A stretch of DNA of 64,000 bases from assembly GCF_018224015.1 (NCBI RefSeq), contig NZ_JAGPOT010000013.1, positions 1 through 64,000 on the forward strand, in the 5' to 3' direction. Made by a program: the position numbers and the translations under genes. The notes beneath the pieces were generated by a model, which searched no databases, was not told where the DNA came from, and was given only the letters and a program-made list of their open reading frames with translations. Below, piece after piece: positions 1,620 through 48,367 of the stretch; the first letter of the stretch is position 1; each line of letters starts with the position of its first letter. The DNA comes from Pseudarthrobacter albicanus. GTDB lineage: Bacteria; Actinomycetota; Actinomycetes; Actinomycetales; Micrococcaceae.

Positions 1620-3057
1620 GGCTCTCCTGACTCTTCCGTGGGCGTTTCCGGAGCGCCTTAACGACCACACGCCGCTTCCTGTCTAGGTTTCTGACTGTTC
1701 AAGGAACAGAAACTTTCAGACGGGAAAACGGCGTGCGAAATGCAAGACTATGGCGAACAATGCTCGGTGTCGAGAAAACGGTCGTCGAGGCCATCGAATT
1801 TGACGATGAATCCGGGGTTCTGGTCGCCTCGGTCAGGCCGACAGGCTCGATGCGCAACCGGTGCGGGATCTGCCTCCGCCGTTGCCCGAAATACGACCAG
1901 GGCCAGGGGCGACGGCGCTGGCGGGCACTGGACGCCGGGGCGATCCGGGTCGAGTTGGAAGCCTACGCCCCGAGGGTGTCCTGCCGGGTCCACGGCGTGA
2001 CCGTGGCCGCCGTGCCCTGGGCCCGGCATCAGGCCGGCCACACCCGCCATTTCGACGCGCAGGTCGCCTGGCTGGCCACGCAAACGTCCAAGACCGCCAT
2101 CACGGAGCTGATGCGTATCGCCTGGCGCACTGTCGGGGCGATCATCACCCGGGTCTGGGACGATACCAGCAAGGTCCACGACCAGTTCGCCGGCCTGAGG
2201 CGGATCGGTATTGACGAGATCTCCTACAAGCGCGGCCACAAGTATCTGACCGTCGTCGTCGACCACGACAGCGGCCGGCTGGTCTGGGCGGCGCCGGGCC
2301 AGGACAAGGCCACCCTGGGCACGTTCTTCGACGCCCTCGGGGCAGAACGCTGCGCCCGGATCTCCCATGTTTCCGCCGACGGGGCCGCGTGGATCGCCGT
2401 TGTCGTGGCCCGGCGGTGCCCGAATGCGGTCCGCTGCGCCGACCCGTTCCATGTCGTCAAATGGGCCACCGAAGCCCTCGACGAGGTGCGCCGGGGCGCG
2501 TGGAACGACGCCCGGAAGGCAGCCCGGACCACCGAGGCCAGGCGCGGCCGCGGCCGGCCCGCGAAAGACGCGCCGGCCCGCCCGGACAGTGCCCGCGCAG
2601 CCGGTCTGAAGAACTCCCGCTACGCGCTCTGGAAGAACCCGGAGAACCTGACCGAGAAGCAGCAGGTCAAGCTCGCCTGGATCGTGCAGACCGACCCCGC
2701 CCTCGGCCGGGCCTACTACCTCAAGGAAGGTCTCCGGGTCATTTTCAAACTACCCCACCACGAAGCCGCCGAAGCCCTCGATAAATGGGTTGCCTGGGCG
2801 CGCCGGTGCCGGATCCCCGCGTTCGTGAAGCTCCAACGCAGCATCGTCAACCACCGCGCCGCGATCCTCGCCGCCATCGAACACGGACTCTCCAACGGAC
2901 GCGTCGAATCGATGAACACCAAGATCAGACTCATCACCCGCATCGCCTTCGGCTTCAAATCACCCGAAGCACTCATCGCCCTCGCAATGCTCAGCCTCGG
3001 AGGTCACAAACCGGTGCTCCCCGGCCGAAACTAACCCACGGAAGAGTCAGGAGGGCC
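1620..3057 (+). mobile_element. ISL3-family insertion sequence, complete
   Basis: The element is 1438 bp. Its 23-bp terminal inverted repeats (1620-1642 and 3035-3057) differ at one base; the left end begins GGCTCTCCTGACTCTTCC and the right, reversed, GGCCCTCCTGACTCTTCC. It is flanked by the 8-bp direct repeat CCAAAGGT (1612-1619 and 3058-3065), the duplication size usual for ISL3. It has one transposase gene, which appears intact, and lies inside a glycosyltransferase gene of opposite orientation. The near-perfect ends and full-length transposase suggest a fairly recent insertion. Confidence 0.93.
1733..3034 (+). CDS. ISL3-family transposase
   Basis: This 433-residue protein carries out cut-and-paste transposition of the surrounding element. 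An N-terminal zinc-finger-like motif (C44, C47, C51 in CGICLRRC) is followed by a DDE catalytic domain. The first Asp is D161 in GIDEISYKRGHKY, another acidic site lies in SADGAAWIAV, and the final Glu is in SNGRVESMNTKIRL. The length is normal for ISL3. The GTG start at 1733 gives MRNARLWR, the usual ISL3 opening; ATG 1760 is an alternative. There is no internal stop or shift. Confidence 0.93.
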   Translation: MRNARLWRTMLGVEKTVVEAIEFDDESGVLVASVRPTGSMRNRCGICLRRCPKYDQGQGRRRWRALDAGAIRVELEAYAPRVSCRVHGVTVAAVPWARHQAGHTRHFDAQVAWLATQTSKTAITELMRIAWRTVGAIITRVWDDTSKVHDQFAGLRRIGIDEISYKRGHKYLTVVVDHDSGRLVWAAPGQDKATLGTFFDALGAERCARISHVSADGAAWIAVVVARRCPNAVRCADPFHVVKWATEALDEVRRGAWNDARKAARTTEARRGRGRPAKDAPARPDSARAAGLKNSRYALWKNPENLTEKQQVKLAWIVQTDPALGRAYYLKEGLRVIFKLPHHEAAEALDKWVAWARRCRIPAFVKLQRSIVNHRAAILAAIEHGLSNGRVESMNTKIRLITRIAFGFKSPEALIALAMLSLGGHKPVLPGRN

Positions 3058-4097
3058 CCAAAGGTCCTGCCGCTGCTCCTCAGTCAGGACAACGACAGCG
3101 TCGAACGTGGGGATGTGCTCGATGAGGTCCCGCATGTCCGGCCTGGTCCCGCTGCCGTACTTGTGAGGCTCAGCCAAGTGGTTGTTATGCACCGTGTAGA
3201 TCACCCGGGCACCGTTCTCCCGCTGCAACCGTTCAAGGGCCCTACGCCTCGTTCCGTACTCGGAGATGATGACAGGGATGGCGTCGCCCACTAGCACGAA
3301 CTCTTGCATCCAGTACGCGAAGAGATCTACGGAGTCTTGGAAGAACAGGCTCGCGTCGCCTTGGCGGTTGACCACGATACCCCCGGACCCGCCCGGAGCC
3401 GGGGTCCACGATCTCCTCCATATAACAGGTCCCATCGCGGCGGATGTAGCGGATGACCTCGGTCTTGTTGTCGGCATTCATCATCTCGACTTTGCACACC
3501 GCGCCCGCCTCGTCATGCCATTCCCGCCGGAGCCGTGTGCGACCCCGCATGTGGTCGATGAAGTTAACCTTCTGCCCGCGCCACCAGACGAAGTGTTTGT
3601 ATTCCCCGCCCTCGTAGCCGCGCTGGACCTCGGCGTTCTTGTTGTCCTGCACGTAATCCCACGCCTCGCCAGTCCCGAGGGGGGCGGTGTACTCGACGTC
3701 GGCGGGGTAGACGGATTGCCCGGCCAAGTCGTGGTGAAGGCTGCGGAACGTGATGAGGTCCTCAAGGCGGTCCATGAGCCGCGAAGTGTGCCGGTCATAG
3801 TCGCAGTAGAACTTGTCTATCAGAATCTCGGTGGAGACCGACGCCTTGGCTAGCGCTTCGGCCCGGCGGAGGACGGACATTCCCAGCCCTGTCGGATGCT
3901 CGGGCATACCACCGAACATGGCAACGTAAACGTGGGGATTCTGAGGTTCTGAAAGCATCCGCCAAGCATACAGCAGGCGATTGCGGGGGCGGATACGATG
4001 ACGGCGCGAGGTTTTGCTTGGACCGAGGCCGACGCCCGCGCGTTTCATCTCTGCCGCACCCCACGTCGCGACGCGGCCCCGGTCATAGCAGAAAAAT

Positions 4098-4123
4098 GCC
4101 CTCACCCCGCGTAGGGTAAGGGC
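4098..4123. terminator. Intrinsic terminator after the GT-D gene
   Basis: A 10-bp stem with one mismatch (GCCCTCACCC 4098-4107 with GGGTAAGGGC 4114-4123) has T-rich tails both ways (ATTTTTCT on the minus strand, CTTTT on the plus strand). It follows the stop at 4154 of the minus-strand gene and separates it from the broken glycosyltransferase downstream. Confidence 0.7.
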
Positions 4124-4153: not shown

Positions 4154-5068
4154 TCAGCTTCGTGCGATAGGTGTGTGCTCTGGGAAAGCACCACCGTTAA
4201 TCACGTTGTTGTAGCTGCTGCTCAGGTGTCCAATGTCCAAGGCGCGTTTGCCGAGCTGCGCCAACCGGTGAGCCAAGACCGTACCTGCCGGTCCCAGGGA
4301 GATGAGAACCAGGTCGTCCTTACCATCCGCGAGGCGCCGGCTAAGGTCTTCTATGTCATTAAAGGCATCCCGCGGCATGGAATATTCGAAGCGCGTTGAA
4401 GCGACACTGTCGAACAAAGCCGGCTCCAAATCGAACCGGGATCCGTGCCCCGTCACGATGGCAACATTTTTGCCAGCCCACAAAGACTTCCAGCCCTCGA
4501 CGGCCTCCTGACCGAACGCCTGGAACATGAGGGGCCGGGACACGTGACTGTTGCCGAAACGCTCGGTGGCATCCAGCATTGGCTCAACCTGATCCCAGAC
4601 CTCGTGGTAAACCGTCGTCCAGTGAAGATCAACGAAGACGTTAGGCATACCGACCAAGAGCTTAGGAGCGCCTTCACCTTTAATGGCTTCCTTCAAACCC
4701 TGCTGAAGGCGAGCAGAGTTCTTCTGGAACGACACGTTGAAGTCGAGCCGGGTCATCATCCTGAACTCCCCGTCGCCGAAGCGCGCGAAGCTCAACTCCT
4801 CATCCCGGATCAGATCCAGCGTCTCCATGAACCCCAACTGCTTGGGGATGATCGCCGCACGGACTTGGCTGAGGAGCGGGGCTCCGAGAATGGTCTTCAA
4901 GCTCTCCACCGTGAGGCGCGTCTTGTTAGCTTCCCAATGTGTCTTGGTTGCCAGCTCTGTCTGAGTTTTCAGCTGGGACGCTACATCCGCGAGCAGCTTG
5001 TTCTGCTCCGCGAGGTGGTCAGAGATGGCCGCGAAGGGCGTTAACATGGTTTCAAGCTGGCTGGTCAA
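4154..5068 (-). CDS. GT-D fold glycosyltransferase (DUF1792 type)
   Basis: This 304-residue protein probably transfers a sugar onto a surface glycan or glycoprotein. Residues about 10-60 are polar and heptad-like (EQNKLLADVASQLKTQTEL), a likely coiled coil. The catalytic core starts near residue 75 with SFARFGDGEFRMM, the hallmark of the GT-D (former DUF1792) fold, and continues through IVTGHGSRFDLEPALF and LVLISLGPAGTVLAHRL. The start is TTG 5068, chosen for the strong GGGGAGAG ribosome site 4-5 bases upstream; the in-frame ATG 5047 would lose that site. It stands alone on the minus strand beside the broken TarM-like gene, so a joint role in decorating a polymer is plausible. Donor and acceptor cannot be read from the sequence. 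Confidence 0.78.
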   Translation of the reverse strand: MTSQLETMLTPFAAISDHLAEQNKLLADVASQLKTQTELATKTHWEANKTRLTVESLKTILGAPLLSQVRAAIIPKQLGFMETLDLIRDEELSFARFGDGEFRMMTRLDFNVSFQKNSARLQQGLKEAIKGEGAPKLLVGMPNVFVDLHWTTVYHEVWDQVEPMLDATERFGNSHVSRPLMFQAFGQEAVEGWKSLWAGKNVAIVTGHGSRFDLEPALFDSVASTRFEYSMPRDAFNDIEDLSRRLADGKDDLVLISLGPAGTVLAHRLAQLGKRALDIGHLSSSYNNVINGGAFPEHTPIARS

Positions 5069-12961: not shown

Positions 12962-14458
12962 CTATCGCGGGACTGAACCCGCCATCTGGTCGAGCTTGCG
13001 GTCCACGGCCATCGACATTACGGTGGCCCACTGGGATGTCACTGAGTGGTCGTCAAAGCGCTCGGCAGTTTCCCTGGCGGCCTGCCGCATGGACGCCAGC
13101 TCGTCAGTTGAAAGCGAGCCCTGCCGGGCGATCCGCCCGGCCAGGCCTTCGATGTCCCCGGCCTCGACCAAATAACCATTGACGCCGTCAACGATAATGT
13201 CGGCAGGTCCGTAAGGCATGTCATAAGCAATCGGAATACAACCGACGCTCATCGCCTCCAGGAGCACCAGCGGAAGACCCTCCATTCGACTCGTCAGGAG
13301 CACGAAGGAGGCCTCCGAGAGCCGCGCCCTCGGCTCGCTGTCGAAGCCGCCGAGGTGGACGCTGTCATTCAATCCCAGCTTGGAAATCAAGGCCGCCATT
13401 TGTTCCCGGACCGGACCTTGTCCATAAATGGTCAGGTCAAACGGCCCGCCTGCCAGGGTGTTTGCCTTGCCGATTCCCCTAATGGCGTGGTCCACCCGCT
13501 TGCGGCTTGTCAGACTTGCCAGCATCACCCCGTGGGTCTGGGAACGCCCGGCTGACGTTGGCAGGCTTTCCGGGAGCTCGGTGCTGTTGGGCACAACGAA
13601 CGTGTTGCCAGGGTTCCCGAAGGCCAAATCAACGTCGTCTTTCTGGCGCTTGGTCAGCAGCACGATCCCGTCGTACGTATTGAGCCGTTCGAAGACATAA
13701 CGGCGCACTGAACTCAGCTCCCCGTGCGGGGGAACTTGGCCGGATGCCATGTGCGAATTGTGAACCAGGTGCAGGGTCACTACATTGTCCCGGCGGAAAC
13801 GCGTAATAAAATTGGCGGTGGACTTACTGTCCACAATCATGAATGTTTCCCGGTTGCCCACAACTGTGTCCAGCCAGAAAAGATACAGCGGCCACATCCT
13901 GTTCCAGGCTGCTACGGGTTCCCCGTTGTGGTCGCACAGGGTGATAAGCCGCCCGCCCTCTGTGCCAGGTTCGTTGACGTCACGCTGATCCGAGACGAAC
14001 AGACTCCCGTCGGCACGGAAATAGTCCACCTGGAGTGTTTTATCCGCGGCCGCATCGACGCGTATTTTGCGCCCCAGGGACCCTTCCGAAAGTTCCTGGG
14101 TATGAGGTTCTTCGTCGGAGACTGGAGCAAAAGTTCCCGTAAGGTTCTTGTCTGCGCGGGCCACGGACAGCCCTTGGTCCGGCAGGGCGGCAAGTTCTTC
14201 CCAAAGGTTCCGCAGGCGCATACCCGGAACCAGTTCGCCGGCAACCTGCATCTCACAGCGCACATCATCGAGGGTGTTGTCATACTCGAAAGTGAGAATG
14301 TCCACGGGTACTCCGGCTTCGCGGACAAATGCCCGCGAACGCCGAAGAAGAGCGCTGGTCATCCCGCCGAAGTCTACGGGTATCCCCCACGTGACGGCGC
14401 AATGGTAACCCGCCGGCATCTCTATCGGCGACTGGGTTTCGTTATTTGCTGAAGGCAT
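12962..14458 (-). CDS. TarM-like GT4 glycosyltransferase
   Basis: This protein of about 498 residues is the last gene of the glycopolymer operon. The N-terminal half is a GT-B acceptor domain with an inserted beta-rich segment (TLQVDYFRADGSLFVSDQRD), as in poly(glycerol-phosphate) alpha-glucosyltransferase TarM. The C-terminal half is a GT4 donor domain: LASLTSRKRVDHAIRG, DLTIYGQGPVREQM, and the E-x7-E region MEGLPLVLLEAMSVGCIPIA. It probably adds a sugar to a phosphodiester glycopolymer on the cytoplasmic side; donor unknown. ATG 14458 (MPSANNET) is taken as start; TTG 14485 would add nine residues, and neither has a clear ribosome site. It is paralogous to the next gene and to the broken gene at 1006-3958. 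Confidence 0.8.
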   Translation of the reverse strand: MPSANNETQSPIEMPAGYHCAVTWGIPVDFGGMTSALLRRSRAFVREAGVPVDILTFEYDNTLDDVRCEMQVAGELVPGMRLRNLWEELAALPDQGLSVARADKNLTGTFAPVSDEEPHTQELSEGSLGRKIRVDAAADKTLQVDYFRADGSLFVSDQRDVNEPGTEGGRLITLCDHNGEPVAAWNRMWPLYLFWLDTVVGNRETFMIVDSKSTANFITRFRRDNVVTLHLVHNSHMASGQVPPHGELSSVRRYVFERLNTYDGIVLLTKRQKDDVDLAFGNPGNTFVVPNSTELPESLPTSAGRSQTHGVMLASLTSRKRVDHAIRGIGKANTLAGGPFDLTIYGQGPVREQMAALISKLGLNDSVHLGGFDSEPRARLSEASFVLLTSRMEGLPLVLLEAMSVGCIPIAYDMPYGPADIIVDGVNGYLVEAGDIEGLAGRIARQGSLSTDELASMRQAARETAERFDDHSVTSQWATVMSMAVDRKLDQMAGSVPR

Positions 14459-14493
14459 TTCTGGCTCGTATCTGTGGTTGTTCAAGTATCAGG

Positions 14494-16362
14494 TTAGGCG
14501 AAGCTGATGCTCATGTTGCCGTGCGCCGTGGCATACGGGCGCGGAGCAGCCTTGGCGTCCGCCAATGGCATCCGAGTCACGGCAGTTGCCCCACCTAGCC
14601 GGGTTTCAAGGTAAACGTCCACTGTGCGGCTTCCTATGGCGGCAAGGATATCCGGCTCGAATGCGAATCCGACGGAATACGTACCTGATGAATCCCGGGT
14701 AATGTTCCCGGCCGCAGCCCGGAAGAACGCTTCACCCGGCCTGATCCGCAGCCTGCCATAAAACCCCGGGATGTCCTCCTGCCATGTCGGCTGCTGCAGC
14801 CGCAGCTTCAACGTGGCCCGGACCTCCAGGTCTCCGCCGGACCCGTACAAACACGATGAGTCTTCAATCTCGACGGTGTGATCCGTTTTCCTGGCCCGTT
14901 TGCGCTCGGCCGCATGCTTCATGGCCTCAACCCACTGCTGCACAACCTTCTTATCGGAGAAGTCGTCAGCCCTCCGCCGCGCGGCGCTGCGCATCTGTTC
15001 CATTTGGAGCGGCGGCATGTCGACAAAAGCGGCGATGCAGCGGGCGAGCTCCTCGACGTTGCCGTACTCCACGAGGAATCCATCAACACCGTGAGTGATG
15101 ACGGACGCGGGGCCGTACGGCAGGTCGTAAGCGATAGGGATACAGCCCGCCGCCATGCTCTCCACAATGACCAGAGGCAAGGCCTCCGAGGTGCTGGTCA
15201 GCAACGAAAACGACGCTTCCTTGAAATGAGACTGAGCGTTCGTGACGTGACCCATTAGCTGAACGTTGTCGCGTTCCTGCAGGTCGACGATCAGCTTCTC
15301 CAACTGGGCGCGCTGGGATCCGTCACCGAAAACGCTTAGCCCGACAGGAGCCGGGAGGAGGGAATTCGCGAGGTGAATGGCCCGGACGGAGTGGTCAACG
15401 CGCTTTCGGTGACTGAGAGTCGCTGCCTGCATTCCTGCCCGCGCTTTTCGCGTGCCCATGGATTCTGGTGCAGATTCAAGGGACCTTCCGTTCGGGATGA
15501 CGTAAGTGCGTCCAACGTCAGATTGCCTTTTGCGCACGTCAGTCGCCTGCTGCTCAGTGAGGAAGACAACGCCGTCGAAGTTGTCCAGCCGCGGGAAAAC
15601 TTCCTGAGCAGACGCGGTCATTTCTGAAGCGAAACCCGCGGTGGCGTCTTCCAGATGGCTTTCATGGACCTGGTAAAACACAACGGCCGTGTCTCGCTGA
15701 TAACTCGCCATGAAGCGAGCAGTATTCTTATTGTCCACCACGAAGTACGCTTGTTCCCCTGCCACGACATAGTCCAGCCAGGAGCGATACAAGCCCCATG
15801 CGGATCCCCAATCCTGCAGGGGAAGACCCGCGGAATCACAAAGCGTCAGTGACCGGCCTCCGTGTACCCCCAGTTGCTTCGCGTCGTGCCGGTCAGACAA
15901 GAGGAGCGATCCGTCCGCGCGAAAATGATCGACCTGCAACAGCGTCTTCCCATCGTCCGCGTAGCGGGCCAGACGCTTGTGCGGGCCCTCCAGTTCGACG
16001 AGGTCCGGGGCATTCTGGGTGGACAAGGGAGAGTACGCAGCAAAGGCGTCAGCCTCGGTGGCAGCGGCCTGAGCTGACGGTGACCCGTCCAGTGCAGCCA
16101 TAGCCGGCAGGTCTTCCCAGAGATTCAGGATGCGGGTGCCCTCCGAGAGGAAGCCCCGTTCTTCCAGGACGCCGCGGAGAGCGGAGTAGTCCCGGAAGTC
16201 GTCGAAGGTCAGGATGTCAACGGGCGCTCCCCCTTCGGAGGCGAAGGAGCGTGAACGATGCAGCATTGCGTTCGTTCGTCCTGCGAATTCTGCCGGCAGG
16301 CTCCAGGTCACGGCAAAATGCCTGCCGGCCGGAAGCAGCCTGGCTGTTGGTTCAGAGTTCAA
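14494..16362 (-). CDS. TarM-like GT4 glycosyltransferase with C-terminal beta domain
   Basis: This 622-residue protein has the same layout as its neighbour: a beta-rich insertion (LLQVDHFRADGSLLLSDRHD) and a GT4 donor domain (ATLSHRKRVDHSVRAI, GLSVFGDGSQRAQLEKL, SEALPLVIVESMAAGCIPIA). It adds about 110 C-terminal residues (HTVEIEDSSCLYGSGG onward) that look like an extra beta sandwich, perhaps for polymer binding or trimerisation. The start is TTG 16362 with GGGGA five bases upstream. It ends 35 bases before the next gene's ATG. The likely role is glycosylation of a surface phosphopolymer, inferred from the TarM-like layout. Confidence 0.8.
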   Translation of the reverse strand: MNSEPTARLLPAGRHFAVTWSLPAEFAGRTNAMLHRSRSFASEGGAPVDILTFDDFRDYSALRGVLEERGFLSEGTRILNLWEDLPAMAALDGSPSAQAAATEADAFAAYSPLSTQNAPDLVELEGPHKRLARYADDGKTLLQVDHFRADGSLLLSDRHDAKQLGVHGGRSLTLCDSAGLPLQDWGSAWGLYRSWLDYVVAGEQAYFVVDNKNTARFMASYQRDTAVVFYQVHESHLEDATAGFASEMTASAQEVFPRLDNFDGVVFLTEQQATDVRKRQSDVGRTYVIPNGRSLESAPESMGTRKARAGMQAATLSHRKRVDHSVRAIHLANSLLPAPVGLSVFGDGSQRAQLEKLIVDLQERDNVQLMGHVTNAQSHFKEASFSLLTSTSEALPLVIVESMAAGCIPIAYDLPYGPASVITHGVDGFLVEYGNVEELARCIAAFVDMPPLQMEQMRSAARRRADDFSDKKVVQQWVEAMKHAAERKRARKTDHTVEIEDSSCLYGSGGDLEVRATLKLRLQQPTWQEDIPGFYGRLRIRPGEAFFRAAAGNITRDSSGTYSVGFAFEPDILAAIGSRTVDVYLETRLGGATAVTRMPLADAKAAPRPYATAHGNMSISFA

Positions 16363-16434
16363 CTAGTCCCCATTTTCCTTTCTGCACAGTGAACCTTTGA
16401 GGCCACCGTCGAGTGCGAGTTCCGATGTATTTTT

Positions 16435-17715
16435 TCAGCGCCAGAAGCCGCGGGTATCGACAATCTGTTTGCCCTGGAGGGCGTCCGGTTCAATCTCACG
16501 GAACTTGTCGTGATCGACCAACAACACCACCACGCCGGCAGCCTCAACCGCTTTATCCGTCTCGACGAGGCGGATGTTGGGTATCGCGGCCAGTTCCTGC
16601 GGCAGATGATCGTTATGCGGTGCCGCCACGAGAATCTCGGCATCCGGGTGCAGAGTGGCCACACGCCGGACGATCTCCACCGCCGGCGACTCGCGGACGT
16701 CGTCGATATTGGCCTTGAAGGCCAGGCCAAGGCAGGCAATAACCGGGCGGCTGACGTCGCCCACGGCCTTCCGGACCTGTTCCACGATGTAGCCGGGCTT
16801 GCGGTCGTTGACTTCCCGCGCGGTCCGGATCAGGGTGGAATTCTCGGGATCGGCCGCCACGATGAACCATGGGTCCACTGCGATGCAGTGGCCGCCGACT
16901 CCGGGACCGGGCTGGAGGATGTTGACGCGGGGGTGGTGGTTAGCCAGGCGGATGAGTTCCCAGACGTCGATGTCCAGCTTGTCGCTGATGAGGGAGAGCT
17001 CATTCGCAAACGCGATGTTAACATCGCGGTAGGCGTTCTCCACGAGCTTCGACATCTCCGCCGTGGCAGCGTCCGTCAGGTGGATCTCGCCCTGGCAGAA
17101 CACCGCGTAGAGCGCCGCGGCTGCCTCGGCAGCCTCGGACGTGAGGCCGCCCACCACGCGGTCGTTCGTTACCAGCTCAATCATGATCCGGCCAGGCAGC
17201 ACCCGCTCGGGGCAGTGTGCCACCAGGAGCACCGGCTTGCCGTCCTGGCCATCGAGGCTGAGATCGGGGCGCAGTCCCAGAAGCAGCTCGGCGAGCCTGC
17301 GCGTGCTGCCGGGGGGCGACGTTGATTCCAGGATCACCAGTTCGCCGCCACTCAACGTGGGGGCGATGGCGCGCGCCGCCGCGGCGATGTAGGACATATC
17401 CGCGGACTTGTCTGCCTTGAACGGCGTCGGCACCGCCACGATGTAGGCATCCGCGCTGGGGGTTTCGAGCTGAGCCCGCAGCCGGCCCTGGCTGACCGCG
17501 CCCGCGACGTGGATGCTCAAGTCCGGTTCCACAAACGGCACGTCGCCGTTGTTGATGGCGTCCACGGTGCTCGGATTGACGTCGACGCCAATCACCTCGA
17601 GTCCGTTGGTGGCCAGGATGGCCGCCGTGGGCAGTCCGATGTAGCCGAGTCCGACGACGGCGACCGTCCTGATCGGGGCCTCCGTCGCCAGAGTGCTAGA
17701 TGTCAACATGTTCAT
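16435..17715 (-). CDS. wecC: UDP-N-acetylmannosamine dehydrogenase-type nucleotide-sugar dehydrogenase
   Basis: This enzyme of about 426 residues oxidises a UDP-sugar to its uronic acid using two NAD+. The N-terminal Rossmann motif is VAVVGLGYIGLPTAAILA; the central helix carries EMSKLVENAYRDVNIAFANE. The catalytic cysteine sits in GPGVGGHCIAVDPWFIV, the form found in UDP-ManNAc dehydrogenases. The C-terminal domain has LGLAFKANIDDVRESPA. It overlaps the upstream gene's end: ATG 17715 or 17709 both precede the stop at 17696, and GGAAAG lies just upstream. It probably supplies ManNAcA for the polymer made here; the exact substrate is inferred. Confidence 0.88.
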   Translation of the reverse strand: MNMLTSSTLATEAPIRTVAVVGLGYIGLPTAAILATNGLEVIGVDVNPSTVDAINNGDVPFVEPDLSIHVAGAVSQGRLRAQLETPSADAYIVAVPTPFKADKSADMSYIAAAARAIAPTLSGGELVILESTSPPGSTRRLAELLLGLRPDLSLDGQDGKPVLLVAHCPERVLPGRIMIELVTNDRVVGGLTSEAAEAAAALYAVFCQGEIHLTDAATAEMSKLVENAYRDVNIAFANELSLISDKLDIDVWELIRLANHHPRVNILQPGPGVGGHCIAVDPWFIVAADPENSTLIRTAREVNDRKPGYIVEQVRKAVGDVSRPVIACLGLAFKANIDDVRESPAVEIVRRVATLHPDAEILVAAPHNDHLPQELAAIPNIRLVETDKAVEAAGVVVLLVDHDKFREIEPDALQGKQIVDTRGFWR

Positions 17716-19603
17716 ATAACTTTCCATAGAATTTGAGCTCGCCGGAGGCAAGCAGTTCCGCATCCTCGACCTGCCAGGTGTGCCCATCCACGGTGCGGAC
17801 CTGGAAGTAGTTGAAGCGGTCAGCCGAGTAGATGATCCGGCCCGCGGCATGGGCGGCCCGGAGAAATCCGGTGTCCTCACCGACCGCGACGTGCTGGAAC
17901 GGGTGGGCGGTGAAGACCTCCCTGCGGGCCATGATGGTCGGCCCCATCACGAAGTCGGTAAAGCGGTGCTCCCTGGCCGCGAACCGCAGGATCGCGGCAT
18001 TCGAGGTCTCCAGGTGCATATAGTGCGCCTGCTTCCCCACGACGTCGGCGCCTGAGTAGGACAGCGCATGAAGCTGGTCACTGAGGTAGTGCGGCCCGTA
18101 GTGGTCGTCGTCGTCCATCTTGGTCAGGACCTGCCCGCTGGCCGCGGCGGCGCATCTGTTCAGGCACTCCCCCAGCGAGACCTCCCGCGTTGCCTCCAGA
18201 AGCACCACGTTCCGGAGCCCGAACTCCTCGGAGAGTTCAGCCAACCGTTCGGTGGAGAGCCGGAAGCCGTGAGTGAGCAGCACCAATTCGGGATCAACGC
18301 CGCGCTGTCCGGCCAGTGTGCGGAAGACCCGTTCCAGGTTCTGCGGCCTGATGGTGGGCAGCAGCACCGAGACTGACGGCCGCGTGACGCCCCTGGCACT
18401 TCCCGGCACAGCGTGTTGCAGCACCGTCTCTGCCCGGTGGGCATAGGTGTGGGCAGCCCAGATGCTGCGTTGGGCCAGGTGCGCCGTGCGGTCGTTCAGC
18501 TCCGGGTTGGAAACCAGGGCCCGGGTCAGGTGCTCGGCTTCCTTGCGGGTGGCGGCCACGGGGACCGCTTCCGGGCTGAAGAACTGTTCCATGGCCTGGC
18601 TCGGGGCTGTCACCACAGGTGTTCCGGAGGCTGAGATTTCAAAGATGCGCCGGGCACACATGCTGGGCGAGTCCACGACGGAGTTGACGTTGAGGAAGAC
18701 CCTGTAGGCCTTGTAGGCGGAAAGCGCCTGCGGATAGCTCAGCGAGCCGACCACTCGTGCGTCCAGCGGCGCCGGGAACTGGTACTCGGCCTTGCCGCCC
18801 AACTGGCGCGAGAAGATCTCCAGCCCCGTGTTCATCCTGGCTGACGCATCCAGGGCGCCACCGAGCACGAGGTCCATCTGGGCGCGCCGCTCGGGATACT
18901 TGTGGGCAAAGTACATTCCGGCGAAGGCAATATCCCTGCTGTGCCGGCCGTGCCCCGGCCTCACCGGGTTATGGATCGCCGGCTGGGCCGCGAAGGGAAG
19001 CACAGCGACGCGCTGATGCCCGAGATCCACTTGGTACTGCGCAATACGGCCGGAATCGGAGGTGAAGACCTGATCGAACAGCTGTGCTGCGGGCAGGAAG
19101 TCATCATAGTGGGGCGGATCCTCTTTGTTCCAGAAGACCGTGGGGATGCCCTGCTGCCGGCACCATTGGACCAGCTCGCGGAATTCCGTACTTGGGCCGT
19201 GCGGTCCTGCGAGTTTTCCTCGCCACAGTCCGCCGTTTCCGGACCAGGCCGACTCGACAAACAAGAGATCAACGCCGTCGGATTCCAGGTCACTGCGCCA
19301 GGTGTGCGGGTGGACCGGGGTGGTGGACCATTCGTAGCCGAAGGCCAGCGCGGAAAAGTCATCAAGGATCACCCCGGCGCGGACGTCCGGCCTGAAAGGC
19401 TGCTGCTGCGGCAGGTTCGCCGGCACGAGCGAGAGCCGCCGCTTACGTCCGCGGCCTGCCCATGCCGCCTCCACTCCCTGGACGTTCCGGGGCGCGGCGA
19501 AGCCCTGTTCGATCCGCCGGCGTGAGCGCCACGTGTTGAACTGGGCCGGTCCGCCGGTCCGCAGATGCCAGAGCCCGGTACGGAGCTGCTGGAAACCCGC
19601 CAT
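17696..19603 (-). CDS. Two-domain glycosyltransferase (CgeB-like + GT2)
   Basis: This 635-residue protein joins two glycosyltransferases. Residues about 1-370 resemble the CgeB family of GT-B enzymes (VFWNKEDPPHYDDF, RRIFEISASGTPVVTA). Residues about 385-620 are a GT-A/GT2 domain: SVSVLLPTIRPQNLERVFRT, the metal-binding acidic cluster TKMDDDDHYGPHY, and FVMGPTIMARREVF. The start ATG 19603 shares its A with the stop TGA of the ABC ATPase gene, so translation is coupled. Two domains suggest successive or alternating sugar additions during polymer synthesis. Specificity unknown. Confidence 0.85.
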   Translation of the reverse strand: MAGFQQLRTGLWHLRTGGPAQFNTWRSRRRIEQGFAAPRNVQGVEAAWAGRGRKRRLSLVPANLPQQQPFRPDVRAGVILDDFSALAFGYEWSTTPVHPHTWRSDLESDGVDLLFVESAWSGNGGLWRGKLAGPHGPSTEFRELVQWCRQQGIPTVFWNKEDPPHYDDFLPAAQLFDQVFTSDSGRIAQYQVDLGHQRVAVLPFAAQPAIHNPVRPGHGRHSRDIAFAGMYFAHKYPERRAQMDLVLGGALDASARMNTGLEIFSRQLGGKAEYQFPAPLDARVVGSLSYPQALSAYKAYRVFLNVNSVVDSPSMCARRIFEISASGTPVVTAPSQAMEQFFSPEAVPVAATRKEAEHLTRALVSNPELNDRTAHLAQRSIWAAHTYAHRAETVLQHAVPGSARGVTRPSVSVLLPTIRPQNLERVFRTLAGQRGVDPELVLLTHGFRLSTERLAELSEEFGLRNVVLLEATREVSLGECLNRCAAAASGQVLTKMDDDDHYGPHYLSDQLHALSYSGADVVGKQAHYMHLETSNAAILRFAAREHRFTDFVMGPTIMARREVFTAHPFQHVAVGEDTGFLRAAHAAGRIIYSADRFNYFQVRTVDGHTWQVEDAELLASGELKFYGKLYEHVDI

Positions 19604-20490
19604 CAGCCTCGGCTCCGGCGTGAGGACCGTCCGCGGACCTCGGTGGCCACCAGCCCGGCTTTGGCATCGTCGAGAATCTTTGTGGCTGAAATATTGTTGC
19701 CCTTGGAAAGGTGACGGGTGAAGTCCTGATAGGCCCTGATGGCTCCATCCGGGTCCCCATCCATGATGAGGTCGCCCTTGTCCAGCCAGACCGCCCGCGT
19801 GCACATGTCCTTGATGGTGTCCAGACTGTGGCTGACGAGGAAGACACAGCCGGCCTGTTCGCGCAGTTCGGCCATGCGCAGCTTGCTGCGGTCCGCAAAC
19901 TGCGCATCACCGGTATTGAGGGCCTCATCCACCAACAGGATCTCGGGGTCAACGCTGGCCGCGATCGCAAAACGCAGGCGCGATGACATGCCCGAGGAGT
20001 AGGACTTCATGGGCAGATGGATGGACTTCTCAAGTCCCGAAAGTTCCACGATGCTGCTGAACTTCGCGTCCACTTCTGCCCTGCTCATCCCCATGGCAAG
20101 GCACCCGAGGATCACGTTCTGATCGCCGGAAAGGTCCTGGACCAGGGCTGCATTAACGCCGAGCATGATGGGCGTACTGGAGGCGTACACGGCCCCCGCC
20201 GTTGGCTTGGATTGGCCGCAGATGATCTTCATGAGGGTGCTCTTGCCGGATCCGTTCCGGCCGATGATCCCCACTGACTCGCCGCGTTCAACCACCAGGG
20301 AGAGCTCGTTCAGGGCGTGGACGGTCACCATGTTGGGCTTCCTGACGGCACGGCGCAGAAAGCGGGGCCCGGCCTGTTCACCATCCACCTCATCTGCCGC
20401 AGTGGACGGAACGCGGTAGCGCATCTGGACGCTGTCCACAACCACGCAGGGATGCCCCTCGATGAAGATTTCCTGCTCAGCCGCGTCCAT
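19603..20490 (-). CDS. ABC exporter ATPase for surface polysaccharide / teichoic acid (Wzt/TagH type)
   Basis: This 295-residue protein energises export of a lipid-linked polymer. Walker A is IGRNGSGKSTLM; the signature is the Wzt/TagH-like SYSSGMSSRLRFA; Walker B is ILLVDEALNTGD; the switch His is in LVSHSLDTI. The long N-terminal lead (VVVDSVQMRYRVPST) is typical of this group. There is no large C-terminal carbohydrate-binding domain, so it is closer to TagH/RfbE short forms than to O9a-type Wzt. ATG 20490 has GGGGAGGAG four bases upstream and overlaps the permease end by 14 bases. Confidence 0.9.
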   Translation of the reverse strand: MDAAEQEIFIEGHPCVVVDSVQMRYRVPSTAADEVDGEQAGPRFLRRAVRKPNMVTVHALNELSLVVERGESVGIIGRNGSGKSTLMKIICGQSKPTAGAVYASSTPIMLGVNAALVQDLSGDQNVILGCLAMGMSRAEVDAKFSSIVELSGLEKSIHLPMKSYSSGMSSRLRFAIAASVDPEILLVDEALNTGDAQFADRSKLRMAELREQAGCVFLVSHSLDTIKDMCTRAVWLDKGDLIMDGDPDGAIRAYQDFTRHLSKGNNISATKILDDAKAGLVATEVRGRSSRRSRG

Positions 20491-21364
20491 AGGACTCCTC
20501 CCCTTTCCAGAAATAGACCAGGCCCACGGCCAGCGCCCCCAGCGCCCAGGCAGCCAGAATGGCCCAGGACTGCCACTGGGGAACCCTGGCATAAAGGACA
20601 CAGTCCCGGATGATGTCGATCACGTTGAACAAGGGGTTGAGCTTGATGGCGGTGAGCATCTCGGGATTGTTGATGAAGCGGTCATAGGTGTAGAAGATGG
20701 CGGAGCAGTACATCCAGGCCCTGGTCGCAAAGGGAAGCAGATGCGTGACGTCGTGGACCCGGGAGATAATGCGGGCAAGAATGAGACCCACTCCAAGGTT
20801 GAAAAGTGACTGCAGAAGTATGGCCGGAACGATCAATAGCCACAGCCAGGTGATCTTTTCCGCCGGCGGCAACACGACGACGATCAGCAGCATCGCCAGG
20901 AGCAGCGGCACAGCAGACAGCAATTCACGCAGGTTCGCGCCGATCGGGAGCGCCGCGCGCGGGAAGTTGAATGCCTGCACCACGGACTTGTTGCTGCGGA
21001 TGGAGCGCGCGCCGGAGGTGATGGCACCGGAGCTGAACTGGAAGACGAAGATCCCCACCACAAGGTATCCCACGAAGTTCTCGATGCCGCGGCTCGTCTT
21101 CAGCAGCAGCCCGAAAATCAAGTAATAGGTCAAGCCATTGAAGATAGGGTTCAGGATCAGCCAGGCGCTGCCGAGGCGGTCCCGGCGCGTACCGCTTTGA
21201 ACGCGGGCACGGGCATCGTAAAAAATAAACTGCCGGAAGTCCCAGAGCTGGACAAGATAGTCCAGGAAACTTGGCCGCGAACCGACACGGGTCAGCCGCC
21301 GCATATCCACGGAGAGGGGTCGTACGGCCACCGGCTCCGGGTCAATTGCACTATCTGCGGACAC
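20477..21364 (-). CDS. ABC-2 type exporter permease (Wzm/TagG type)
   Basis: This 295-residue inner-membrane protein partners the ATPase just downstream. Six hydrophobic segments are visible, including GLTYYLIFGLLL, FVGYLVVGIFVFQF, LLSAVPLLLAMLLIVVVLP, LWLLIVPAILLQSLFNLGVGL and ILAAWALGALAVGLVYFW. The N-terminal DYLVQLWDFRQFIFYDARAR and the central LNPLFNVIDIIRDCV are family features of Wzm/TagG permeases. The GTG start at 21364 overlaps the upstream TAG by one base; GAGGAG lies eight bases before. Confidence 0.9.
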   Translation of the reverse strand: MSADSAIDPEPVAVRPLSVDMRRLTRVGSRPSFLDYLVQLWDFRQFIFYDARARVQSGTRRDRLGSAWLILNPIFNGLTYYLIFGLLLKTSRGIENFVGYLVVGIFVFQFSSGAITSGARSIRSNKSVVQAFNFPRAALPIGANLRELLSAVPLLLAMLLIVVVLPPAEKITWLWLLIVPAILLQSLFNLGVGLILARIISRVHDVTHLLPFATRAWMYCSAIFYTYDRFINNPEMLTAIKLNPLFNVIDIIRDCVLYARVPQWQSWAILAAWALGALAVGLVYFWKGEESYGRG

Positions 21365-23112
21365 TACTGGTTCTCCTCATGTTCATGGTGCAGCCCGGCG
21401 TATCGGGTGGCCAGGGCGTTGGCGTTGGCCGCCCAGGTCCTCTCGGCGAGAACTGCAGCCCGCCCAGTTTGCCCCATCGATGCCCTGCGGCTCCCATTGG
21501 AGAGCAGCGCCGAGATCGTGCGTGCCAGTTCGTCTGGGGACGCGGCACGGGCCAGAAGCCCGTTGCCGCCGTCGTCTATTATCTCCCGAAGTGCGGGCAG
21601 GTCACTTCCAACCACTGGCCGCGCGCTCGCCAGTGCCTCGACCGGCTTGAGGGGCGTCACGGCACGGGTGACCTCCAGGTCCTTGCGCGGGACCACAAAC
21701 ACGTCCAGCGCCTGGTGGTAGAGGGGCGTCTGCTCCCGCGGGACACGCCCGGTGAACACCGCCCTGTCCGCAAGTCCCAGAATCCGGACCTGCTCCTGCA
21801 AGGCGGGTCCGGACACACCGTCACCGACGATCAGCAGGCGCAGCTGCGGAAATTCCGGCGCCAGGAGGGCGAAGGCCTTCACCAGGTCATCCAGGCCTTC
21901 ATACGCCACGAGGCTGCTGACCGTGCCGATGTACTGGCCCGCCTCGGGCAGCCCCAGTTCGCGGCGGGCGCTGGCGGCATCGCCCGGCTCCTCGAGGAAG
22001 GCGCCGCCCACCGCGTTCGGCACGATGACGACTTTCTCCTCGGGGATGCCCGCGGCGACAATATTGGCTTTCATGGCCTGCCCCAGCGTCACCACCACGT
22101 CGGCGTCCCGCATGACGTCGGCTTCGCGGTCCTGGAACAGCCGGTACTTTTCGCTGTCCCGGGCCCCCGGCCCCCGGGTCGCTGCCCAGGTGTCCGCCAA
22201 CTGTCCGCGGACCTCATAGACCCAGGGGATCCCCAAGGCCTCGGCCACCGCGCGGACAACCAGTCCGTTGACGAAGTGTGTCGTGGTGTGCAGGACGCTT
22301 GGCTTGAACTCCAGCGCCACGCTGAGCAGCTCTTCGGCCTGTTGCTGCAGGCGCGCATCCATCGCCGGGGCCAGCCTGACCGGGAGGAGCCGGCGGTAGC
22401 GGACACCATCCACGACGTCGCTTGCCCGCGCCAGGAACTTGCCCACCTGCACCGGGTAGGCCAGCCGGGTGACGGCAAGGACATCCCACCCCGCTTCCTG
22501 CTGCGCCACCATGATGGAGTGGGACCGCTGGGCGTAGCCGCTGGCGGTGTGGGGAAGGGAATTGGTCAGCAAATACAGGACCCGGCCGGGAACCGGGGTG
22601 AACGGCTGCCGGTCCAGCGAAGGGGCAAAACCTGCGTAGACCGCCGCCTCACCGGCAAGGCGTGCCTGCTGCCGCCGTCCTGCCGGGCCGGAGCCGTCGA
22701 GGACGGCGACGGCTCCGGTGAGGTCCCCCTCATGCCAGAGCCTGCGCGCCTGCGCGGCCTTCAGACCGGAAGCACCGCCTGCCGCGGCCAACAAGGTGTC
22801 CGAAAGCTCCGGCAGGCCGGCGGCCAGGGCGATATCAGCCAGCCGGCGGGCTTGCTCCCCCTTGGCGCCCCCGCGGACGGCAAGCTCAAGCCGGCGCTTC
22901 ACATCGGCGTCGTCGCCGTTTCCCAGCGCTGCAAGCAGCACCGGAACCGCCACGGACTTTTTAGGGAATACAGCGCACGCAAGGCGGCCAAGTGGACGGA
23001 CGACGGCGGGCAGGCGCCGCGTGGTCTGGAGGTACAGCAGGACCGGGTCGTCGGTGAGGTGCTGGCTGATGACGCCCGCGGCGAGCCGGACGTTCTTGAG
23101 GAGCTGGATCAT
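21364..23112 (-). CDS. GT4 glycosyltransferase with long N-terminal extension
   Basis: Of 582 residues, the first 170 are Ala/Leu-rich helical repeats (GEQARRLADIALAAGLPELS), perhaps a protein-interaction region. The rest is a GT-B enzyme: acceptor domain with SLPHTASGYAQRSHS and donor domain with VIVPNAVGG, YIGTVSSLVAYEGLDDLVKA and KPVEALASARPVVGSDL. It probably extends the surface polymer. It begins at ATG 23112, three bases after the preceding gene, and ends overlapping the permease start. Sugar specificity cannot be read. Confidence 0.85.
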   Translation of the reverse strand: MIQLLKNVRLAAGVISQHLTDDPVLLYLQTTRRLPAVVRPLGRLACAVFPKKSVAVPVLLAALGNGDDADVKRRLELAVRGGAKGEQARRLADIALAAGLPELSDTLLAAAGGASGLKAAQARRLWHEGDLTGAVAVLDGSGPAGRRQQARLAGEAAVYAGFAPSLDRQPFTPVPGRVLYLLTNSLPHTASGYAQRSHSIMVAQQEAGWDVLAVTRLAYPVQVGKFLARASDVVDGVRYRRLLPVRLAPAMDARLQQQAEELLSVALEFKPSVLHTTTHFVNGLVVRAVAEALGIPWVYEVRGQLADTWAATRGPGARDSEKYRLFQDREADVMRDADVVVTLGQAMKANIVAAGIPEEKVVIVPNAVGGAFLEEPGDAASARRELGLPEAGQYIGTVSSLVAYEGLDDLVKAFALLAPEFPQLRLLIVGDGVSGPALQEQVRILGLADRAVFTGRVPREQTPLYHQALDVFVVPRKDLEVTRAVTPLKPVEALASARPVVGSDLPALREIIDDGGNGLLARAASPDELARTISALLSNGSRRASMGQTGRAAVLAERTWAANANALATRYAGLHHEHEENQ

Positions 23113-23115
23113 CTG

Positions 23116-24369
23116 CTAGGAACGGGCTTCGGCGAGGAGGTCGGAAATAAGTTCCATGTAGCGGCCGGCCAGGTGTTCATATTCGGCATGCGTCTTGACC
23201 CACTGGCGGCCGTCGCCGCTCCGGACAAGGCGGCCCCGGTCTGCGGCAAGTTCACGCCACAGCGCTGCCACCGCCTCGGGGTCGCATGCCACGATGTTTC
23301 CGGCGCCGGCGTCGGCGATAATCCGGGCCGCCTCGCCCCGCACGATGGCGGTAACGTGCCGCCCAAGGGCCAACACTTCATAGGTCTTGGACGGAACGGT
23401 GGTCTCAAAGGATTTCCAGTCATCGCGCAGGGACACCAGGCAGGTGTCCGCCGACGCGTAGCGTTCCATCATTGCCGCGCCGTGAAGAGGCGCGTGGAAG
23501 GTCACCGGCGCCTTTAATTCGCGGGCGAGCTTCTCCAGCGCCGGCCGCTGGGTCCCGTGACCCACCATGTGCAGGTGCATCGAATCGCCCATCAGCGCGC
23601 TCGCCCGGATGGCCACGTCCAGCCGCTGGCTCTCGCCGTGGTTGCCCAGGTAGAGAGCTTCAAAAATGGGCTTGTCCAGATCCGGCGCGTCCATGACCGG
23701 GATGGCGTCCAGATGGACTCCGTTGCTGATGGTTGCAACATTTCGGACTCCGCGTGCCCGCAGCGTTTCAGCGAATCCTTCAGTCACCGTGACCACAAGA
23801 TCGGCCCTCTGCTGTACGAAGTCCACCACGAGTTCCACCACGCTCTTGACGCTTCCCTGGATAATCCGGGCGTCGCGGGCGAGGTCAGGCCAGGCGTCCC
23901 GCATTTCCACGATCAGCGGCACCCGCCGCAGCCTGGCCAGCAGGTAACCGGCGGCAAGGGACGGAAGGCTGGGGGCGGTGACGATGACGACGTCGGGACG
24001 GGGCCCGGCCAGTCCCACCGGGACGGACAGCAGGGCCGAAAAGCATTGGTCGATGAGGCGCCCAGCCCGTGAGTTGCCGTGCCGCAGGTACGGGACCCGG
24101 CGGACGAGCTCCGTGAACTGCCCTTTTTGCGTCTGGAAGGGGCGCCCAGCCTTCGACCGCGGCAGGACCCGCCGGCCGAACGGGTAATGCGCCACCGGCG
24201 CGATGACGTCCACGTGCCAGCCCGAGCGGGAGAATTCCTTGATCATGGCGGTCCAGCGCCGCTGGGGCGGACTCTGCTCCGGCCAGTAGGAGTGGGTCAA
24301 AAGCGAGATCCGCACGGCATCCGGACCGGACCCACCCGTGGCAGGTCCGGCAATGACTTTATCTAGCAT
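23116..24369 (-). CDS. GT4 glycosyltransferase (WbuB/WcaI-like)
   Basis: This 417-residue GT-B enzyme has an N-terminal domain opening with ISLLTHSYWPEQSPPQRRW, the pattern of WbuB-like transferases, and a donor domain with ATISNGVHLDAIP, EALYLGNHGESQRLDVAI and TTVPSKTYEVLALGRHVTA. It is the second gene of the operon, five bases after the proline-rich protein's stop. The likely role is an early sugar transfer onto the lipid carrier or growing chain. Confidence 0.85.
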   Translation of the reverse strand: MLDKVIAGPATGGSGPDAVRISLLTHSYWPEQSPPQRRWTAMIKEFSRSGWHVDVIAPVAHYPFGRRVLPRSKAGRPFQTQKGQFTELVRRVPYLRHGNSRAGRLIDQCFSALLSVPVGLAGPRPDVVIVTAPSLPSLAAGYLLARLRRVPLIVEMRDAWPDLARDARIIQGSVKSVVELVVDFVQQRADLVVTVTEGFAETLRARGVRNVATISNGVHLDAIPVMDAPDLDKPIFEALYLGNHGESQRLDVAIRASALMGDSMHLHMVGHGTQRPALEKLARELKAPVTFHAPLHGAAMMERYASADTCLVSLRDDWKSFETTVPSKTYEVLALGRHVTAIVRGEAARIIADAGAGNIVACDPEAVAALWRELAADRGRLVRSGDGRQWVKTHAEYEHLAGRYMELISDLLAEARS

Positions 24370-24374
24370 ATTTG

Positions 24375-25100
24375 TTACGACTTGCCTGACCGCGCGGCGC
24401 TGACTTTTTTCGAACCCAGGAAACGGAAATAGGCGAGGCCGATTCCCAGGAGGATGAGCACCGTCATCACCTGAACGATCAGCGGACTGCCGCTGGCAAC
24501 GGCTACCGCGGCCTGGACCTGGGACTGCACGATTGCGGGAAGTGCGACAGGCTTCAGGGCAGCCGGTTGGGGCGCCGGTGGCGAGGGCTCAGGGTTGGCC
24601 GTTGGCGCGGCCGGCTCCGTTGCCTCGGCGCTGGTCTCTTCAACGCTGGCAGGCTCAGCCGCGGGCGGCTGGACCACCGGCGCTACGGCGGGCGGGGTGA
24701 CGACGGCCGGAGCCGGGGCCTCCGGGGCCTGCGGCGGGGAGGCGTCGGCGGAGGGCAGCGGATCAACAGCGGGCGCAGGTTCCGGGGTGGGCGCCGCGGT
24801 GCCCGGCCCGGCCGGGGTCACCGGCGCGGGATCAGGGCTGACCACCGGAGTGGGATCAGGGCTGACCACCGGAGTGGGATCAGGGCTGACAACCGGGGCC
24901 GGGTCTGTCGGGGTCACGGGCACGGGCACGGGCACGGGCACGGGCACGGGCACGGGCACGGGCACAATACTGGCTGTTGCGGGACCGGGAACAACCGGAT
25001 CCTCGGCATAAGCGGCACCTGTACCGGTGAAGCCCAAAATGAGCAGCAACGCCGCCACTACGGCAGGTGCTGACCTTGATTTACGGCTGCGCGATGTCAT
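24375..25100 (-). CDS. Proline-rich, C-terminally membrane-anchored surface protein
   Basis: This 241-residue protein has a signal peptide (VVAALLLILGFTGTGAAYA) followed by about 170 residues of low-complexity Pro/Ala/Val/Glu. That region includes a run of eight Pro-Val dipeptides and three VSPDPTPV-type octapeptide repeats. A C-terminal transmembrane helix (VMTVLILLGIGLAYFRFLG) with a basic tail follows; there is no LPXTG. ATG 25100 has a GGAGGG ribosome site nine bases upstream. It heads the operon and may span the wall or tether the polymer machinery; that is inference from position and composition. Confidence 0.75.
   Translation of the reverse strand: MTSRSRKSRSAPAVVAALLLILGFTGTGAAYAEDPVVPGPATASIVPVPVPVPVPVPVPVPVTPTDPAPVVSPDPTPVVSPDPTPVVSPDPAPVTPAGPGTAAPTPEPAPAVDPLPSADASPPQAPEAPAPAVVTPPAVAPVVQPPAAEPASVEETSAEATEPAAPTANPEPSPPAPQPAALKPVALPAIVQSQVQAAVAVASGSPLIVQVMTVLILLGIGLAYFRFLGSKKVSAARSGKS
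24828..24899. repeat. Three tandem 24-bp repeats in the proline-rich gene
   Basis: The unit core GATCAGGGCTGACCACCGG recurs at 24-bp spacing three times, the third diverging at its end. It encodes the SPDPTPVV-type octapeptides, so copy number changes would keep the reading frame. Confidence 0.85.
24915..24965. repeat. (GGGCAC)n hexanucleotide microsatellite, about 8 copies
   Basis: A perfect run of the hexamer GGGCAC encodes the Pro-Val dipeptide tract on the minus strand. Slippage would lengthen or shorten the tract by whole dipeptides without a frameshift. Confidence 0.9.
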
Positions 25101-25302
25101 CGACAGTCCCTCCCCCAGGTGCAAGATAAATTCGGCTGGCGTGGTCTTGAGGCCCACGCAGACGGCGACGTCGGCAAAGCCCTAGAAATTTATGATCTTC
25201 ACAGTGTACTCGATGGTTCTGTCCAGCCCATGAATTTATACTCGTTTCCCGTCCGCACCTCCCCGGGCGGCCACCCTCCGCCGGCCGGGATAGGCTTGGA
25301 GG

Positions 25303-47310: not shown

Positions 47311-47313
47311 GCT

Positions 47314-48318
<1,005 letters not shown>

Positions 48319-48367
48319 TTACGGTACCCGATTTGCTGCGGCCGTTAGTGACGGCAATGATTGGGGC

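Follow-up and report, generated by a model that had tools for sequence, protein, structure and literature searches.

The nearest precedent for the locus treated here is the utr locus of Streptomyces griseus, reported in 2025. According to the available excerpts of that paper, it encodes a TarM-like enzyme (UtrF) and a TarS-like enzyme (UtrC), and the polymer is a teichuronic chain on ribitol teichoic acid (PMC13274773). A polymer of N-acetylmannosaminuronic acid (ManNAcA) is known from Micrococcus luteus. Excerpts of a 2010 paper give its wall teichuronic acid as [-4-bManNAcA-(1-6)-aGlc-1-]n, linked to the wall and made from uridine diphosphate (UDP)-ManNAcA and UDP-glucose; the teichuronic acid synthetase (TUAS) complex has been purified, and study of the genes was still called for (PMC3005890). 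In Staphylococcus aureus, the glycosyltransferases TarM and TarS are described as acting in the cytoplasm prior to export by TarGH (PMC5836110, excerpts). Here we analyzed a nine-gene minus-strand operon (25157 to 12962) in the first 64 kb (the window) of contig C35 (NZ_JAGPOT010000013.1) from Pseudarthrobacter albicanus, whose genome is 4.57 Mb in 241 contigs. With a probability of roughly 0.55, we consider it to be a Micrococcaceae locus for a wall polymer of the teichuronic acid type in its Arthrobacter form, carrying a cassette of TarM-like enzymes that would act on a polyol phosphate made by TagF.

Like the utr locus, the window operon has a UDP-sugar dehydrogenase and a TarM-like enzyme, and gene content varies between species in both. 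The S. griseus locus has ManNAc3NAcA (PMC13274773), whereas ManNAcA is predicted for the window operon. The nine genes, to which the comparison was confined, include neither a TarS-like gene nor the aminotransferase/oxidase pair of utr as excerpted, and their core has a Wzm/Wzt exporter and a CgeB/GT2 fusion. The tua operon of Bacillus subtilis differs in its UDP-glucose dehydrogenase, TuaD; the window dehydrogenase fails the TuaD model NF047673 (145 bits, cut-off 700). The original prediction suggested an undescribed polymer. This is right only in part: no paper on the locus was found in the openly licensed literature, but a ManNAcA polymer is known in M. luteus and the genome presumed to be that species has most of the core genes.

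The operon, its conserved core and its likely polymer

All nine genes of the original prediction were present, with the families it named and at fitting positions. Inspection of open reading frames (ORFs) places them in one direction of transcription, with intergenic spacing of -20 to +72 bases for the starts chosen here. In operon order they are:

24375..25157, minus strand: Pro/Ala-rich protein (Pro-rich protein), opening the operon; its N-terminus is signal-like and a hydrophobic stretch lies at its C-terminus
23116..24369, minus strand: GT4a, a GT4 glycosyltransferase (Pfam); WcaI-like but below cut-off
21364..23112, minus strand: GT4b, a GT4 glycosyltransferase with an N-terminal extension of about 170 residues; TIGR04063-like, below cut-off
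20477..21364, minus strand: Wzm, an ABC-2 permease (PF01061)
19603..20490, minus strand: Wzt, an ABC ATPase of 295 aa (PF00005)
17696..19603, minus strand: fusion of a CgeB-type GT-B and a GT2 GT-A glycosyltransferase, 635 aa (PF13524, PF00535); candidate two-site copolymerase
16435..17715, minus strand: UDP-N-acetyl-D-mannosamine (UDP-ManNAc) dehydrogenase (NF008286, 577 bits, cut-off 459)
14494..16362, minus strand: TarM2, a TarM-like glycosyltransferase of 622 aa with a C-terminal beta domain (about residues 490-622)
12962..14485, minus strand: TarM1, a TarM-like glycosyltransferase of 507 aa without that C-terminal domain

Gene order in related genomes divides these nine genes into a conserved core and a variable TarM-like cassette. 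The CgeB/GT2 protein was scanned against genome contigs, giving relatives in at least 591 stretches, and the nine window proteins were placed by tblastn on the best 80 loci, two of which share one contig. ORF calls were unreliable in the very GC-rich Micrococcus loci, where tblastn was used instead. The six-gene order GT4a-GT4b-Wzm-Wzt-CgeB/GT2-dehydrogenase is kept in 41 of the 80, which exceeds chance co-occurrence; these loci are labelled Arthrobacter, Pseudarthrobacter, Paenarthrobacter, Micrococcaceae or Kocuria, plus one Sporosarcina. The CgeB/GT2-dehydrogenase pair extends further, to Cellulomonas, Promicromonospora, Oerskovia and others, and a family survey found the fusion at E 1e-100 or better in 97 of 295 genomes and 16 of 32 genera.

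Seven of the 80 loci contain TarM-like genes, in every case behind the dehydrogenase; elsewhere that slot is filled by TagF-type, TarS-like, GT4 or CgeB-type genes. The nine genes had been taken as one unit. A fixed unit that includes the TarM-like pair is ruled out, as the pair is missing from 35 of the 41 full-core loci. G+C content at third codon positions in the window is 0.70-0.71 for the pair and 0.79-0.84 across the six core genes; it is clearly below the core in five of the seven loci with TarM-like genes and nearly equal in the other two (L018 and L021).

A Pro-rich-type ORF with a C-terminal hydrophobic stretch precedes GT4a in 35 of the 41 full-core loci, by a heuristic combined with reading of the tails. 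The six without it are five Kocuria loci, which have an LCP homologue nearby, and L038. The window product is 21% Pro, and its likely start is the ATG at 25100, the first ATG of its ORF. It had been described as an anchored surface protein. The signal-like and hydrophobic ends are visible by eye; LPXTG is absent from the sequence, so anchoring would mean a membrane helix. The Ser-Asp dipeptide is absent as well, and neither Pfam nor NCBIfam gives a match.

The permease and ATPase form a pair as in TagGH and Wzm-Wzt exporters. Pfam found no carbohydrate-binding C-domain in Wzt, and its likeness to TagH is below cut-off (NF010065, 177 bits against 538). Both enzymes of the ManNAcA pathway pass curated cut-offs, the dehydrogenase as listed above and the UDP-GlcNAc 2-epimerase WecB, encoded elsewhere in the genome on contig C8, with TIGR00236 (464 bits, cut-off 210). 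The Pfam and NF008286 matches thus support the predicted surface or wall glycopolymer operon with an exporter of the Wzm/Wzt type and a capacity for UDP-ManNAcA.

Comparison with Micrococcus used genus g14, which we take to be Micrococcus, and genome G268, which we take to be M. luteus NCTC 2665. The dehydrogenase is present at 63-66% identity in nine of nine tested g14 genomes. G268 has the order rnc, LCP, GT4a, a relative of a 732-aa glycosyltransferase, dehydrogenase, GT4b and second dehydrogenase, with Wzt, Wzm and WecB about 11 kb beyond; the set from LCP to WecB lies within about 24 kb. Its dehydrogenase scores 585.9 bits (cut-off 459) and is 61-63% identical to that of the window, and identities are 44% for GT4a and 50% for GT4b. 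The presumed M. luteus and the window therefore share precursor supply, dehydrogenase, both GT4 enzymes, Wzm, Wzt and WecB. They differ in that a relative of the 732-aa two-domain glycosyltransferase stands in place of the CgeB/GT2 fusion, and no TarM-like match was found in the three G268 stretches compared. The Micrococcus candidates have this large enzyme (715-732 aa; L147 758-2905, L131 7113-9311) instead of the fusion, and in Arthrobacter both are present; a fourth presumed Micrococcus genome (L132) has a partial CgeB-type match of 37%. Because most of the core genes and WecB are matched in a presumed M. luteus, and the teichuronic acid of that species holds ManNAcA, a teichuronic-acid-type operon is most likely.

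The fusion enzyme was modelled with AlphaFold2 from 30 sequences (predicted local distance difference test, pLDDT, 89; predicted template modelling score, pTM, 0.88). In the model, residues 71-403 form a GT-B fold (PimA, BshA; Z about 22, about 290-308 residues aligned) and residues 408-630 a GT-A fold (Z about 19, 191-207 aligned). Further Foldseek matches include exostosins and chondroitin polymerase. Like the fusion, exostosins and chondroitin/heparosan synthases are bifunctional copolymerases with two catalytic folds per chain; unlike them, the fusion has a different domain order and different families, and exostosins superpose poorly on the whole chain (TM 0.24-0.30, root-mean-square deviation (rmsd) 14-16). 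With a retaining GT4-like site joined to an inverting GT2 site, alpha and beta linkages would alternate, so the two catalytic folds would fit a chain like the M. luteus repeat.

From these genes we infer a sequence of steps. WecB and the dehydrogenase would make UDP-ManNAcA, GT4a and GT4b would assemble the initial sugars on a carrier lipid, and the fusion would use its single GT-B and single GT-A sites to elongate the chain by adding hexose and ManNAcA alternately. Wzm/Wzt would export the polymer and an LCP-type ligase would attach it to the wall, with the Pro-rich membrane protein as a putative core accessory. The TarM-like pair, predicted to be retaining GT4-type enzymes of the cytoplasm, would add alpha-sugars to a poly(polyol phosphate) from TagF-type polymerases encoded nearby; these sugars may be plain decoration or may serve as the base from which the ManNAcA chain grows.

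The TarM-like pair and its acceptor

The pair belongs to the TarM/SdgB/GtfA fold family. With either protein, a sequence search of the PDB gave TarM first, then SdgB and further TarM; the bit scores of TarM1 are 112 for TarM and 81 for SdgB. The TarM2 model, built from 17 sequences, has pLDDT 79.9 and pTM 0.81, and rows 1-23 of its Foldseek result are all TarM, SdgB or GtfA. The TarM-like fold that had been predicted was borne out by VIA-align, in which TarM 7qd7 ranked first (430 residues, Z 27.1, rmsd 5.0); rows less than 1 Z apart are ties, and rmsd ranges from 3.4 to 5.1. General GT4 enzymes interleave (2jjm at rank 3, Z 25.8) but align about 345 residues, against 421-443 for TarM, SdgB and GtfA. 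The modelled fold covers the whole TarM chain, including its beta domain (GT4 with a DUF1975-type domain).

We take H249, R326, K331, E403 and E411 to be residues with roles in TarM. The EX7E glutamates E393 and E401 of TarM2 align to E403 and E411, and H233 and K320 align to H249 and K331; all four are invariant in 17 of 17 sequences. The pair thus shares with S. aureus TarM (4x7r, 7qd7) the GT-B fold with the extra beta domain, the EX7E motif and the H249/K331 equivalents, at only 16-20% identity, and the longer copy differs in adding a C-terminal domain. The presence of such enzymes in an actinobacterium had seemed remarkable; in a sample of 396 genomes from the order, 55 carry a TarM-like gene at E 1e-60 or better, and UtrF is a published case.

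The C-terminal domain was predicted correctly as a beta domain, with residues about 495-597 modelled mostly as beta strands, and incorrectly as an unusual addition. It is conserved across TarM2 orthologues, nine of which were used to build a hidden Markov model (HMM). Beyond the TarM2 copies in the loci first compared, the HMM matches one protein at E<=0.1, a TarS-like cassette protein (PF00535, PF22181; TarS 5tze E 2.5e-44) of locus L027, with a domain i-E of 5.9e-6 among 19,021 frames; shuffled frames gave no match up to E 10. Of another 19 TarM-like loci from the order (L157-L175), ten have at least 100 residues behind the catalytic part. The HMM matches two of these, at E 8.6e-18 and, marginally, 0.0012, and in eight of the ten the last 40 residues show by eye a motif resembling Y-x-T-x-x-G-N-x-S or a close variant of it. 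Relatives of the domain in TarM2 orthologues, in further TarM-like proteins of Micrococcales and in the TarS-like protein of L027 thus rule out that it is unique. Pfam gave nothing useful for it up to E 10, and the profile against PDB sequences gave no TarS chain and one unrelated match (E 0.14). S. aureus TarS (5tz8) likewise has a C-terminal beta domain behind its catalytic part, which differs in being GT2. The TarS C-domains are described in excerpts as Ig-like, forming a trimer and raising acceptor affinity and processivity (PMC5156392). By analogy, the TarM2 domain probably binds the acceptor or holds subunits together.

Teichoic acid is the favoured acceptor for the pair, not a proven one. 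In the genus, nine TarM-like-positive genomes and 51 of the 141 negative ones were searched for TagF (PF04464), which was found in 9/9 positives (weakly in G124, E 1e-20) and 0/51 negatives (Fisher 7e-11). Position is better evidence for the link than counts across the order. By a raw hand count, TarM-like and TagF genes lie no more than 15 kb apart in 13 of 22 genomes of the order that have both, in families f1, f6, f8, f11 and f17, with distances of about 110 bases in G172 and about 60 in G693. In the soil species Arthrobacter humicola (G084), a single ddl-to-thiL segment of about 42 kb carries the core, the TarM pair, WecB and two TagF proteins, one TPR-TagF-GT4 and one GT2-TagF, together with a metallophosphatase, a nucleotidyltransferase, a second fusion, a second dehydrogenase and a glycosyltransferase of 715 aa. 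Counterparts of this segment in the genome of the window are on contigs C24, C56 and C8.

Several observations weigh against this combined reading of a teichuronic-acid-type core with a teichoic acid-directed cassette. The Fisher value of the genus test overstates the evidence because the positive genomes carry related loci. In the order, where 33 of the 55 positives were compared with 47 negatives (no TarM-like match at E 1e-60) chosen by handle number and unmatched by family, TagF was present in 22/33 and 16/47 (Fisher p 0.006), and this contrast lies mostly between families. Positive versus negative counts are 7/8 and 1/1 in f6, 4/4 and 2/2 in f8, 2/2 and 3/3 in f17, 2/4 and 0/2 in f11, 3/6 and 0/1 in f15, and 0/1 and 0/5 in f20. 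The direction is reversed in f19 (1/5 and 3/4), which includes some of the best-scoring outside TarM-like relatives. The TagF genes of the window's genome are on another contig (C24), so adjacency is taken from A. humicola. At 90 bits for TarM and 87 for SdgB, TarM2 is equally near to a protein glycosyltransferase, and it has no arginine aligned to TarM R326. A search of three g14 genomes found the CgeB/GT2 fusion in none of them; the large glycosyltransferase of G268 is a different enzyme, so the polymer of G268 need not be the same. No promoter or terminator signals above chance were found for the operon.

The strongest rival is that the pair acts on the ManNAcA polymer itself, adding side sugars or alternate repeats, with no involvement of teichoic acid. 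The pair is in the same operon immediately behind the dehydrogenase, 11 of the 33 TarM-like-positive genomes of the order lack TagF, with the contrast largely gone within families, and UtrF is proposed in the available excerpts to add alpha-N-acetylgalactosamine within the teichuronic chain (PMC13274773). In the genus sample, however, TarM-like genes are found only alongside TagF, at least 4 of the 51 TarM-like-negative genomes (G005, G088, G091, G109) have the CgeB/GT2 fusion and no TarM-like gene, and in G010 the TarM2 gene lies about 1 Mb from the core. We regard this rival as rather unlikely.

Glycosylation of a surface protein such as the Pro-rich product, in the manner of SdgA/SdgB and GtfA, is improbable. 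SdgA and SdgB are the best NCBIfam matches of the pair, far below cut-off, SdgB is structurally almost as close to TarM2 as TarM is, the operon is headed by a Pro-rich and probably exported protein, and a GT-D gene adjoins a broken third TarM-like copy in the window. These points are set against the absence of Ser-Asp dipeptides and the company of TagF in the genus. The Pro-rich protein is unlikely to be a private substrate of the pair, as 29 of the 35 full-core loci with a Pro-rich gene have no TarM-like genes.

A loosely bound capsule or exopolysaccharide in place of a wall-linked polymer is also a poor prospect, for although Wzm/Wzt exporters are known to serve capsules too and no LCP gene is among the nine, LCP homologues adjoin the same core in G010, the five Kocuria loci, part of the Arthrobacter loci and the Micrococcus candidates, and the M. 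luteus polymer is wall-linked (PMC3005890, excerpts).

Neighbouring genes and broken copies

On the 5' side of the operon are DUF3515 (plus strand) and then ddl, gpsA and murA, the last three named by eye. Homologues of ddl and gpsA occupy the same position in many of the 80 compared loci. Two further glycosyltransferase genes lie on the other side:

About 1006..4105, minus strand: third TarM-like gene, a pseudogene with an ISL3-type transposase inside
4154..5068, minus strand: GT-D fold glycosyltransferase (PF08759, 122 bits), adjoining the broken TarM-like gene

The broken third paralogue of the original prediction is real, being interrupted by an ISL3-family transposase at 1733-3034. Its downstream piece scores as a Glycos_transf_1 (GT4) C-terminal half and is 33% identical to TarM2. 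The upstream piece has no Pfam match, and its frame is by eye apparently also lost. Further transposase-like sequence was seen by eye at the contig end (1-900). Streptococcal GT-D enzymes act on adhesins.

The second CgeB/GT2 gene of the genome is in fragments on C24 (L152, 599-2012) and C56 (L153, 1-363). The pieces contain a stop, and a transposase-like ORF lies at the contig end. Because the gene is broken, the second set of uronate-polymer genes probably has no activity. A 989-aa protein without a Pfam match (L146, 13438-16407) is encoded between WecB and the second fusion, and fragments of it are on C24.

Elsewhere in the window, proteins with fibronectin-III and endonuclease/exonuclease/phosphatase domains are encoded within 6784-12843. 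One copy is intact (11464-12843, plus strand), and a second seems split by a Transposase_29 gene (8098-10350). Genes for dTDP-rhamnose are at 45904-49240, with RmlC-RmlD as one fused protein and rmlB and rmlA named by eye.

Possible variation of wall polymers in the Micrococcaceae

A broader proposal, which we put forward tentatively, is that this is a serotype-like locus of the Micrococcaceae, between ddl and thiL in several Arthrobacter. It would have a constant uronate and export core and exchangeable cassettes of TagF, TarM-like, TarS-like or other glycosyltransferase genes. The TarM cassette would link both polymers, with a ManNAcA chain on or beside glycosylated wall teichoic acid, TarM-like enzymes with a C-terminal acceptor domain may be a distinct lineage, and the core would mark the teichuronic acid genes of M. 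luteus.

No paper assigning the M. luteus teichuronic acid genes was found in the openly licensed literature. Homology to the present core singles out candidates for them, and the question becomes testable. The exchangeable cassette suggests that the wall polymers of common actinobacteria vary like capsules; if so, this variation would be relevant to recognition by phages and toxins.

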